A stretch of DNA of 64,000 nt from Nitrospirota bacterium (GTDB taxonomy: Bacteria > Nitrospirota > Thermodesulfovibrionia > Thermodesulfovibrionales > UBA6898), in NCBI GenBank assembly GCA_021783515.1, contig JAJXTV010000007.1:1-64000 (forward strand). Reading direction: 5' to 3'. A program made the position numbers and the translations under genes. How positions within the stretch are numbered: the stretch's first letter is position 1; every line of letters starts with the position of its first letter. The notes below the pieces were generated by a model, which saw nothing but the letters and a program-made list of their open reading frames with translations, was not told the origin of the DNA and did no database searches. Positions 38,592 through 42,649 of the stretch are shown here, one piece after another.

Positions 38592-40721
38592 TCACCGCCT
38601 GACCCTCAGTATGCCCTCCATCTGGCTGATCTTCTGGATGAGCGTCCGAAGCTGGCCGAGGTCTCTGACCTCGATGATGAACGTGATATGGCTCTTTTGG
38701 TCCTGGGTCGACGCCGCCTCCAGGTGGCTTATGTTGATGTTGATCGAAGAGATGAGGGCCGAAAGGTTCGCCAGCACCCCCGGCTTGTCTACGGTCTCGA
38801 GGAACAGCCTCGCGTTGGCGGTCGAATCGGCCGACGACTGCCACTCGACGTCGACAAGCCTCGCCTCCTCGACTACGAGCCTCTCGAGGTTCGCGCAGTC
38901 CCTGCGGTGGACCGTGACTCCCTTGCCGATCGTGACGAAGCCGACGAGATTGTCTCCCGGCACGGGATAGCAGCATTTGGCGGTATGGTAGAGGACGTTG
39001 TCGATCCCCCTGATACTGACGCCCTTCTGCTCCTTCGCCGGCTTCCGGACCCTGACCGGCTCGGGCTCTTCGGCCGTCTTTTCGGGCATCAGCCGGTTGA
39101 CGACCTGATGGGGAGAGACCTTGCCGAAGCCTACCGAGACGAAGAGGTCTTCGAGCGAGTTCATCCCGAGCGATTTCGCCGCAGTGAGGATCTCGTCGGA
39201 TCTCATGAGGGCGTTGCTCATGTTGTGCTTCCGCAGTTCCGATTCGAGGAGCTTGATCCCGAGCTCGACGCTCTGATGTCGCTCCTCCGCCTTTATCCAC
39301 TGCTTGATGCGCGTCTTCGCCCTCTGCGTAACCACGAACTTCAGCCAGTCCCTGCTCGGGCCGTGCGTCTGGGAGGTGATGATCTCGATCGTGTCTCCGT
39401 TTTTCAGCTTGTACCGGAGCGGGACGATCTTCCCGTTGATCTTCGCGCCTACGCAGCGGTGGCCGACCTGGGTATGGACGCCATAGGCAAAATCCACCGG
39501 GGTGGACCCGATCGGCATCTCCTTGATCTCGCCCTTGGGGGTGAAGACATAGACGACCTCGGGCACCACCTCGCCCTTGACCGCCTCGAGAAAGTCCATT
39601 GCGTCCGGCACCTCCTTCTGGACCTGCACGAGGTCCCTCAGCCAGGAGATGTATTTGCTGCTCTTTTCGTCGAGCTCCCCCTTCTCCTTGTACTTCCAGT
39701 GGGAGGCGATGCCCTCTTCGGCGATCCGGTGCATCTCCTCGGTCCGGATCTGAAATTCGACCCGCTCGCCCTTCGGCCCGATCACCGTCGTATGCAGAGA
39801 CTGATACATGTTGGATTTCGGAACGCCGATGTAATCCTTGAACCTCCCGGGGATCGGCGTCCAGAGCGAATGGATCAGGCCGAGGATCGCGTAGCAGTTG
39901 GCCTTGGTGTCGGTGAGGATCCGCAGGCCTATCACGTCATGCACCTGCTCGAAGGTGATCCTCTGCTTCTGCATCTTCTGGTAGATGCCGTAGTGATGTT
40001 TCACCCTCCCGGTCACCTTGCCCGGCAGACCTTCTTCCCCCAGCTTCTTCGTGATAAGGTCCATGAGTTCCCGGATGTAACCTTCCTGCTCCTCTTTCCG
40101 CTTGGCGACCTTCCTGACAAGCTCGTCGTAGAGGTCGGGCATAAGGAATTTAAAGCTGAGGTCCTCGAACTCGGTCCGCAACCAGCCGATGCCGAGCCGG
40201 TTGGCGAGCGGGGCGTAAATCTCGAGCGTCTCGGCGGCAATCCTCTGCCGCTTGTTTTCCGGAAGGTGCTGAAGAGTGCGCATGTTGTGGAGCCGGTCGG
40301 CGAACTTGATCAGGATCACCCGGATATCTTCCGACATCGCCAGCAGCATCTTGCGGAAATTTTCGGCCTGCGCCTCCTTCTTGGTCTTGAATTCGACCTT
40401 CGAGAGTTTCGTGAGAGATTCGACGATAAAGGCGACCTCTTTCCCGAAGAGGCGCCGGACGTCCTCGATCGTGGTGTTCGTATCTTCTATCGTGTCGTGC
40501 AGGAGCCCGGCCGCAAGAGAGGAGAGGTCCATCTTGATGTCGGCGAGGATATATGCCACGGCGAGGGGATGCCGGATGTAGGGCGACCCCTCGCTCCGTT
40601 TCTGGCTGCAGTGCGCCTCCCTCGAAAAATGATAGGCGTTTTCGAGAATACGGAGGTCTTTCCCGTGGCTGTAGGACCGGACTTTTTCGACGAGCTCTTT
40701 CAGCGACAGGGTATCCCGCAT
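38592..40721 (-). CDS. rel: Bifunctional (p)ppGpp synthetase/hydrolase Rel/SpoT
   Basis: 709 residues. Domains in order: HD hydrolase with LAAGLLHDTIEDT and FADRLHNMRTL (about 20-190), the RelA_SpoT synthetase with DVIGLRILTD and MYQSLHTTVIGP (about 230-350), TGS (VVYVFTPKGEIKEMP, about 385-445), and a C-terminal zinc-finger/ACT region (CCYPVPGDNLVGF, ITFIIEVRDLGQL). It sets the stringent-response alarmone level. The intact HD motif argues for hydrolase activity as well. TATAAT lies 5 bases before the ATG without a Shine-Dalgarno. It is downstream of recJ, with a small mobile element between. Confidence 0.95.
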   Translation of the reverse strand: MRDTLSLKELVEKVRSYSHGKDLRILENAYHFSREAHCSQKRSEGSPYIRHPLAVAYILADIKMDLSSLAAGLLHDTIEDTNTTIEDVRRLFGKEVAFIVESLTKLSKVEFKTKKEAQAENFRKMLLAMSEDIRVILIKFADRLHNMRTLQHLPENKRQRIAAETLEIYAPLANRLGIGWLRTEFEDLSFKFLMPDLYDELVRKVAKRKEEQEGYIRELMDLITKKLGEEGLPGKVTGRVKHHYGIYQKMQKQRITFEQVHDVIGLRILTDTKANCYAILGLIHSLWTPIPGRFKDYIGVPKSNMYQSLHTTVIGPKGERVEFQIRTEEMHRIAEEGIASHWKYKEKGELDEKSSKYISWLRDLVQVQKEVPDAMDFLEAVKGEVVPEVVYVFTPKGEIKEMPIGSTPVDFAYGVHTQVGHRCVGAKINGKIVPLRYKLKNGDTIEIITSQTHGPSRDWLKFVVTQRAKTRIKQWIKAEERHQSVELGIKLLESELRKHNMSNALMRSDEILTAAKSLGMNSLEDLFVSVGFGKVSPHQVVNRLMPEKTAEEPEPVRVRKPAKEQKGVSIRGIDNVLYHTAKCCYPVPGDNLVGFVTIGKGVTVHRRDCANLERLVVEEARLVDVEWQSSADSTANARLFLETVDKPGVLANLSALISSININISHLEAASTQDQKSHITFIIEVRDLGQLRTLIQKISQMEGILRVRR

Positions 40722-40726
40722 GCTCT

Positions 40727-40732
40727 ATTATA
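40727..40732 (-). promoter_or_regulatory. -10 box of rel, probable leaderless start
   Basis: On the minus strand TATAAT is followed by AGAGC and ATG 40721. The predicted +1 is at the start codon. The promoter lies 39 bases downstream of the MITE-like element's left end. Confidence 0.6.
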
Positions 40733-40770: not shown

Positions 40771-40951
40771 TAGAACCTGTCTCAAAATTGATTCTGAAGC
40801 GAGAAGGAGATGAAATTGTGGCAGACAAGGAAGCAGGAAAGAAACGCCCGGAGGCGTAGCGGCGCTACGTTGAGGACTTTTTTTGTCCGATGACGCAGCA
40901 TGTCGCGATTTCAGCCTTTTGTAGCCGGAAGCAATTTCGAGATAGGTCCTA
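40771..40951. mobile_element. MITE-like non-autonomous element with 20-bp inverted ends
   Basis: The ends are TAGAACCTGTCTCAAAATTG (40771-40790) and, reverse-complemented, TAGGACCTATCTCGAAATTG (40932-40951): 17 of 20 identical. TA at each extreme fits TA target duplication of the IS630/Tc1-mariner kind. The 181-bp interior has no transposase, only an inner dyad (GTAGCGGCGCTAC) and a 27-codon frame from ATG 40810 with AAGGAG before it. The right end contributes the TAG stop of recJ. Confidence 0.75.
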
Positions 40952-42649
40952 TATGCTCGGACGGATCGCCTTGAGGACGAGCTGGAGATATCTGCCGCCG
41001 TTCCATTCGTTGATCGTCGGGGTAAAGGCGGCGTCTATCGTCCCGTAGAGGTCGAAGTCGTCGATGCGGCCGCCCATATCGAATCCTATGGCGTCGAGAC
41101 GACAGGCGCGCTGGCGTAGCTTCAGCCTCAGGTGGTTGCTTCCGACGACCTTCGGCGATTCGGCCTTCAGTATCCTCGCCCCGAAAAGCGGCTCGGGATT
41201 GCCGAGCCCGAGCGGTTCGAGCATGCTCAGTTCCTTCATGAGTCCGTAATTGATCTCGGGGAGTTCCACATCGGCATCTATCGTAATGCCCGCGTCCGTC
41301 CCCTCTGCCGAATGCGAGGCCGCCAGCCGGCCGAGGCGCTCACGGAAGGCCCCCAGTTTCGCGGCCTCAAGCCTTATGCCGGCAGCCTGTTTGTGGCCGC
41401 CATAGCTCATGAGCAGGTCCCTGCATTCCGAGAGCGCGCTGCAGATGTCGAAAGAAGGCACGCTCCGGGCCGAACCTTTCGCGATCCCGTCTTTCACCGA
41501 AAGAACGACAGCGGGACGGCAGCAGCGTTCGGCAATCCGGGAGGCGACGATGCCGATGACCCCCTCGTGCCAGCCGACGCCGGCAAGAACGATCGCGCCC
41601 GCCCCCTCCTCGTCCCCCAGTCTCGCGCAGGCCGCATGGAAGATCTCCTCTTCTATCCGTTGCCGTTCCGCATTAAGCCCGTCGAGCCAGAGCGCAAGCT
41701 CCGCCGCCTCCTCGCCTGAATCGGTCGTCAGAAGCCTGACGACGTCCTCCGACGAGGCAAGTCTGCCGGCTGCATTTATCCTCGGGATCAGCGAAAAGGC
41801 GAGCCTGCCGGTTTTCATGTTTCTGCCCTCCATGCCGGCCACCCTGAGCAGCGCCTGCACCCCGGGGCGGCGGGCCTCGTTGATCAGGGAAAGACCCGCG
41901 CTCACAATGATCCTGTTCTCCCCAGTCATCGGCACGACATCGGCTACGGTGCCGAGCGCGGCAAGATCGAAGAGCGGCTGCAAGTCTTCGGGGCGGTCAC
42001 GGTAGAGCGCCTGGGCGAGTTTCAGCGCGACCCCCGCGCCGGAAAGGAACTCGACCGCCGACCCGGCGTCCGTCACTTTCGGGTTGACGACCGCGGCGGC
42101 TTCCGGCAGCAGGACGTCGGGCTCAGAAGGCCGCCCCCTCGCCGGCTCATGATGGTCGGTGATAATGACGTCGATACCTTCTTCCCGCGCGGCGGCCGCC
42201 GCCTCAAAAGAAGTAATTCCGCAATCCACCGTAATGATCAGCGACGAGCCGGCCTCCTTCGCCCTGGCGACGCCGTGGGGCTGAAACCCGTAACCGTGGG
42301 AAAACCTGTCGGGGATGAACCAGAGGCAATCGGCCCCGAGAGAACGAAGCACGAGAACGAGGATCGAGGTGGCAGAAACGCCGTCGGCGTCATAATCCCC
42401 GTGAATGAATATGCGCTCCCCGCCGGCAACCGCATGCCTGACCCTGGCCGCAGCGGCCGAAATTCCGGGGATGTCAAAAGGATCGCCGAGCAGAGAAAGG
42501 CCCGGCCGGAGAAAATCAGAGATGGCTGACGCGGTTTTCAGCCCCCTGTTGACGAGTACCTGGGCAAAAAGAGGCGATACCGAGGCGCTTTTCGACAGGT
42601 ACTGCAGGAATTCGGGATTCGTCCTGTTTATCAGCCACCGATTATTCAT
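40949..42649 (-). CDS. recJ: Single-stranded-DNA exonuclease RecJ
   Basis: 566 residues of the DHH phosphoesterase superfamily. Motifs: HGDYDADGVSATSILV (motif I), DCGITSFE, VIITDHHEPARG (DHH), then DHHA1 with SYGGHKQAAGIRLE near residue 420. It degrades single-stranded DNA 5'-3' in recombination and mismatch repair. The ATG lacks an obvious Shine-Dalgarno. It lies downstream of secD-secF, the order found in many anaerobes. The reading frame ends ATA-TAG inside the inverted end of a MITE-like element, so the original C-terminus may have been altered. Confidence 0.94.
   Translation of the reverse strand: MNNRWLINRTNPEFLQYLSKSASVSPLFAQVLVNRGLKTASAISDFLRPGLSLLGDPFDIPGISAAAARVRHAVAGGERIFIHGDYDADGVSATSILVLVLRSLGADCLWFIPDRFSHGYGFQPHGVARAKEAGSSLIITVDCGITSFEAAAAAREEGIDVIITDHHEPARGRPSEPDVLLPEAAAVVNPKVTDAGSAVEFLSGAGVALKLAQALYRDRPEDLQPLFDLAALGTVADVVPMTGENRIIVSAGLSLINEARRPGVQALLRVAGMEGRNMKTGRLAFSLIPRINAAGRLASSEDVVRLLTTDSGEEAAELALWLDGLNAERQRIEEEIFHAACARLGDEEGAGAIVLAGVGWHEGVIGIVASRIAERCCRPAVVLSVKDGIAKGSARSVPSFDICSALSECRDLLMSYGGHKQAAGIRLEAAKLGAFRERLGRLAASHSAEGTDAGITIDADVELPEINYGLMKELSMLEPLGLGNPEPLFGARILKAESPKVVGSNHLRLKLRQRACRLDAIGFDMGGRIDDFDLYGTIDAAFTPTINEWNGGRYLQLVLKAIRPSI

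Follow-up and report, generated by a model that had tools for sequence, protein, structure and literature searches.

Several repeat families of bacteria offer points of comparison for the element described here. The IS427 group of the IS5 family includes IS711 of Brucella, an 842-bp element with 20-bp ends that duplicates TA within YTAR (PMC2266754), and members in Paracoccus that are 832–865 bp long and mostly generate 2-bp duplications (PMC3281130). In pneumococci, 36 CDSs take their stop codon from a BOX repeat and show no evident truncation (PMC3049150), and repeats that supply stop codons are therefore already known. Miniature inverted-repeat elements (MITEs) include the NEMIS/Correia elements of Neisseria, which are 107–155 bp long and form mRNA hairpins cut by RNase III, and RUP of Streptococcus pneumoniae, which is IS630-derived (both PMC2229807).

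The element in question lies between recJ and rel in a genome of the Nitrospirota (G000), and the window analysed is a stretch of 64,000 nucleotides in which it occupies positions 40771–40951, as a miniature inverted-repeat element of 177 bp plus a TA duplication. It is short, multicopy and devoid of a transposase. With the IS427 group it is connected through longer autonomous elements with the same ends, which share the target rule, the duplication and the size of that group, whereas the window element lacks a transposase and has an unrelated interior of 130 bp. The subfamily to which it belongs resembles BOX repeats in that the repeat encodes the stop codon of the upstream gene; the sequences are unrelated, however, and here a YTAR target combined with a G-initial end explains how the stop is preserved. 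NEMIS/Correia and the window element are both hairpin-forming MITEs of different sequence, the hairpin of the latter being a predicted one. RUP is likewise short, non-autonomous and directed to TA, but it is mobilised by an IS630-type and not an IS5 transposase. In the reading that we favour, with a probability of about 0.88, the window element is a non-autonomous IS5-family (IS427-like) MITE that sits silently in the stop codon of recJ, and whose insertion always rebuilds TAG. The features of the locus are as follows.

40771–40772, no strand: left TA target-site duplication; the local target is C-TA-T, and TA flanks the G-initial ends in most copies
40773–40949, plus strand: the MITE proper, 177 bp, without transposase
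40773–40794, plus strand: left terminal inverted repeat, GAACCTGTCTCAAAATTGATTC, common to the ~838-bp IS5-family elements
40928–40949, minus strand: right terminal inverted repeat, GGACCTATCTCGAAATTGCTTC, facing recJ
40950–40951, no strand: right TA target-site duplication, which is also the TA of the recJ stop codon
40949–40951, minus strand: recJ stop codon TAG, its TA supplied by the target and its G by the element; TAG at the empty site as well
40949–42649, minus strand: recJ, 566 aa, with unchanged C-terminus
40727–40732, minus strand: TATAAT, separated by five bases from the ATG of rel, present in element-free relatives too
38592–40721, minus strand: rel (RelA/SpoT-type protein), downstream of recJ

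A preliminary description made from the same DNA had reported a MITE-like element of 181 bp with 17/20-identical inverted ends, and both points hold. Between the two ends, TAGAACCTGTCTCAAAATTG and TAGGACCTATCTCGAAATTG, 17 of 20 positions agree, and the arms extend to 24 nt with 83% complementarity (40771–40794 pairing with 40928–40951). The conserved-looking 27-codon frame noted inside the element is present in the window, but only 6 of the 69 aligned copies retain its ATG followed by an ORF of comparable length, and the frame is therefore not conserved. The element matched none of the curated RNA models of Rfam, and a scan for terminators within it returned only two weak pattern matches and no clear terminator.

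A search with the 20-bp ends, proposed at that stage as a genome-wide check and here extended to other genomes, recovered further copies as well as autonomous elements with matching ends. The same genome harbours a second copy, 85% identical (G000:C26:13782–13960), together with what is probably a relic, in which one end is well preserved (G000:C8, near 3763); the scan as a whole returned at least 118 DNA stretches from many phyla. The short transposase-less element is present in two copies in G000 and in 40 or more in G118, and relatives of the same order carry as many as 40 or more. Given the second copy in its own genome and the many copies in others, the element is more than a chance resemblance of two ends. 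Pairs of such ends fall into two size groups, one short (138–290 bp, with several interior types) and one of about 806–838 bp. Elements of the larger group encode an IS5-family transposase (PF13340 plus PF01609, NF033580), which in the ~838-bp elements scores 222.6 bits with NF033580 against a cut-off of 110, and they have terminal inverted repeats in common with the window element. Most copies are inserted at a TA within YTAR with duplication of the TA, and the rest are mostly half matches; the window copy, at C-TA-T (A-TA-G on the gene strand), does not have the full YTAR. The size of ~838 bp and the TA/YTAR rule agree with IS711 and the Paracoccus members, hence the fit to the IS427 group. 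Neither G000 nor the relatives with many copies, all searched as draft assemblies, yielded a transposase of this family above cut-off, and for this reason the copies look like remnants, or like dependents of an element missing from the drafts. Draft assemblies may lose repeats, and a relict copy does not strictly need its mobilising transposase in the same genome. In the ~838-bp IS5 elements (e.g. L043 6657–7494 and L062 4377–5214) the transposase is often broken, or its coding sequence is divided between two frames, which is also the case in the IS427 group.

The second copy is also found in a stop codon. There, a 364-aa acetyltransferase-like gene ends in ...KKYRIYEKKL-TAG, the TAG being contributed by the element edge, and the counterpart in G002, without the element, ends in ...KKYRIYEKKL-TAA. 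Both intact copies of this genome are thus silent stop-codon insertions. Across the relatives, 31 of the 95 distinct sites of the window subfamily lie exactly in a stop codon, against 5.0 predicted from how often each target class is hit in intergenic DNA (copies that share a genome being not wholly independent in these counts); the occupancy of stop codons by the 181-bp subfamily is thus about six times that predicted from the intergenic insertion rate. In all 31 the TAG lies at the element edge. For these figures, sites from relatives were merged by their flanks, the empty site was modelled, and genes were called by our own hexamer model instead of a standard annotator; this caller was preferred to longest-ORF calls, which had misclassified recJ on account of an 809-aa antisense ORF. 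Restriction to YTAR sites leaves an odds ratio of 4.7 for stop codons (p = 6e-6). A fresh set, added after the idea had formed, has 9 of 22 sites at stops, or 9 of the 19 non-interior sites against a background of 10% (p = 4e-5). The first 1–9 bases downstream of stops are enriched too (odds ratio 3.6, p = 0.01), which indicates a preference for the extreme 3' end of the gene with a peak at the stop codon. Pfam domains were found in ten host genes that were checked, and in several (cysteinyl- and seryl-tRNA synthetase, FtsK) they reach near the C-terminus; other genes with stop-codon copies encode an HslU-like ATPase and an acyl transferase. No prior report of this element subfamily, or of the coincidence of YTAR with stops, was found in the literature searched, which left most subscription papers outside it.

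The excess could arise in the following way. A transposase not found in the assembly would mobilise the MITE in trans; the element inserts at a TA within YTAR, the TA being duplicated and the element ends beginning with G. In frame, the TAR of YTAR is a TAA or TAG stop, and the target thus overlaps the stop codon; insertion after the TA turns TA|R into TA|G and so leaves TAG at every stop hit this way. The host protein remains unchanged, because the TA of the target and the G of the element always restore TAG. The over-use of stops would then reflect this overlap together with harmless gene 3' ends, insertions elsewhere being purged by selection, and the transcribed hairpin would have at most a minor 3'-UTR effect. 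A bolder reading, which we consider less likely than not, is that in the order of the window genome this subfamily favours stop codons as a safe landing site, the target rule matching TAA/TAG and the element end remaking TAG, and that its covarying hairpin may then serve as the 3' end of host mRNAs.

It is rather unlikely, by comparison, that selection favours the subfamily at the 3' ends of genes because it works as a terminator or 3'-UTR module, with a stable hairpin that ends or protects the upstream mRNA. Such a role would accord with the enrichment at stops and in the 1–9 bases downstream, with the covariation of the hairpin (22 of 65 pairs changed on both sides, a figure reached in 0 of 500 shuffles), and with the lack of any stop excess among elements with the same ends and other interiors (3 of 45; p = 1e-4 for the difference from the window subfamily, the two coming from different genomes). 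Each strand of the element has a more stable fold than any of its dinucleotide shuffles (z of -4.6 and -5.2). Hairpins are, however, commonplace in MITEs, a clear terminator was not found, and in alignment A1 all 30 copies have the more stable fold on the plus (window) strand, the opposite of the recJ transcript (mean -85.7 versus -71.6 kcal/mol for the minus strand). Nor is orientation toward the gene reliably fixed: the right end faced the gene at 19 of 22 sites (19:3) at discovery and at 4:5 in the fresh set (combined 23:8, p = 0.011), and no orientation claim is made in view of the latter. Asymmetry of the target flanks was considered as a cause of orientation and rejected, the flanks being symmetric. 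Active targeting of stop-codon or 3'-end DNA by the transposase, beyond the TA/YTAR rule, appears unlikely as well. Stop sites are indeed preferred over YTAR sites up to 60 bases downstream (odds ratio 2.5 at YTAR, p = 0.02), and copies in stop codons are also present where the intergenic gap is wide, but surviving insertions alone are visible, and the enrichment extends into the 1–9-base zone. As the excess is specific to one subfamily, target choice and selection can be tested against each other. With a target that overlaps stops and an end that restores TAG, an element can enter dense genomes with proteins unharmed, and annotators may mistake such insertions for altered C-termini.

For the recJ site, the preliminary description proposed that the insertion may have reshaped the C-terminus of RecJ and severed rel from the upstream operon, favouring a leaderless promoter of its own, which we consider highly improbable. 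The underlying observation is right: recJ ends in AGC-ATA-TAG, where the TA of the stop is the target duplication and the right end of the element supplies the G as its first base, and 177 bp now separate recJ from rel. The interpretation is mostly wrong, with some of it supported. Once the element and a single TA are taken out, the sequence reads ...CGT CCG AGC ATA TAG CGAAATTGTTCTTGAATACTG...TATATAATAGAGCATG, and the predicted junction of the empty site, CCG-AGC-ATA-TAG-CGAAATTG, has the same stop. Counted from the final codons of recJ up to and including the ATG of rel, this empty site measures 66 bases, against 67 in element-free G002, and the two can be aligned with one gap. G001 and G002, of the same genus, have no element between recJ and rel, and their RecJ proteins stop at the equivalent residue (LKAIRPSI in the window, LKAFRPSA in G002, LKAFRSSA in G001), although these nearest element-free relatives are ~76% identical in RecJ and their flanks are not nearly identical. 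Relatives with the same recJ terminus and no element had been named beforehand as evidence against reshaping; with an empty site that already reads ATA-TAG and an equal RecJ length in such relatives, RecJ was not reshaped. Taken alone, the recJ case is a neutral insertion.

For rel, the closeness of the element's left end to the TATAAT box stands, at a distance of 38 bases and not 39. The arrangement TATAAT-N5-ATG occurs before rel with the same spacing in six relatives that lack the element at this locus (G001, G002, G003, G013, G021 and G026), so that the promoter was not created by the insertion and is older than it. The rel mRNA is likely to be a conserved leaderless transcript, independent of the MITE, and the insertion has possibly altered read-through transcription from recJ into rel. 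The box exactly five bases from the rel ATG can be seen at window positions 40722–40732 and at L142, L143, L146, L150, L153 and L159, and is conserved across the family. In L143 (G001, a sister species), a different palindromic repeat of ~150 bp lies just 3' of recJ, in the same recJ–rel gap and near the stop codon.

Descent from an IS630/Tc1-type transposon, the origin first proposed and one that the TA duplication would suit, is scarcely credible as far as matching ends can show, since the same-ended autonomous elements bear an IS5-family transposase.

Some copies have been modified further. Small palindromic insertions (e.g. CCCGCCATGGCGGG) lie within the MITE copies at L249 2501–2689 and L242 2501–2686. 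A degenerate element with one intact end (L355 1464–1610) lies beside a response-regulator gene, at its 3' end, and has a different interior with a repeat-like GGGAATGACG stretch.
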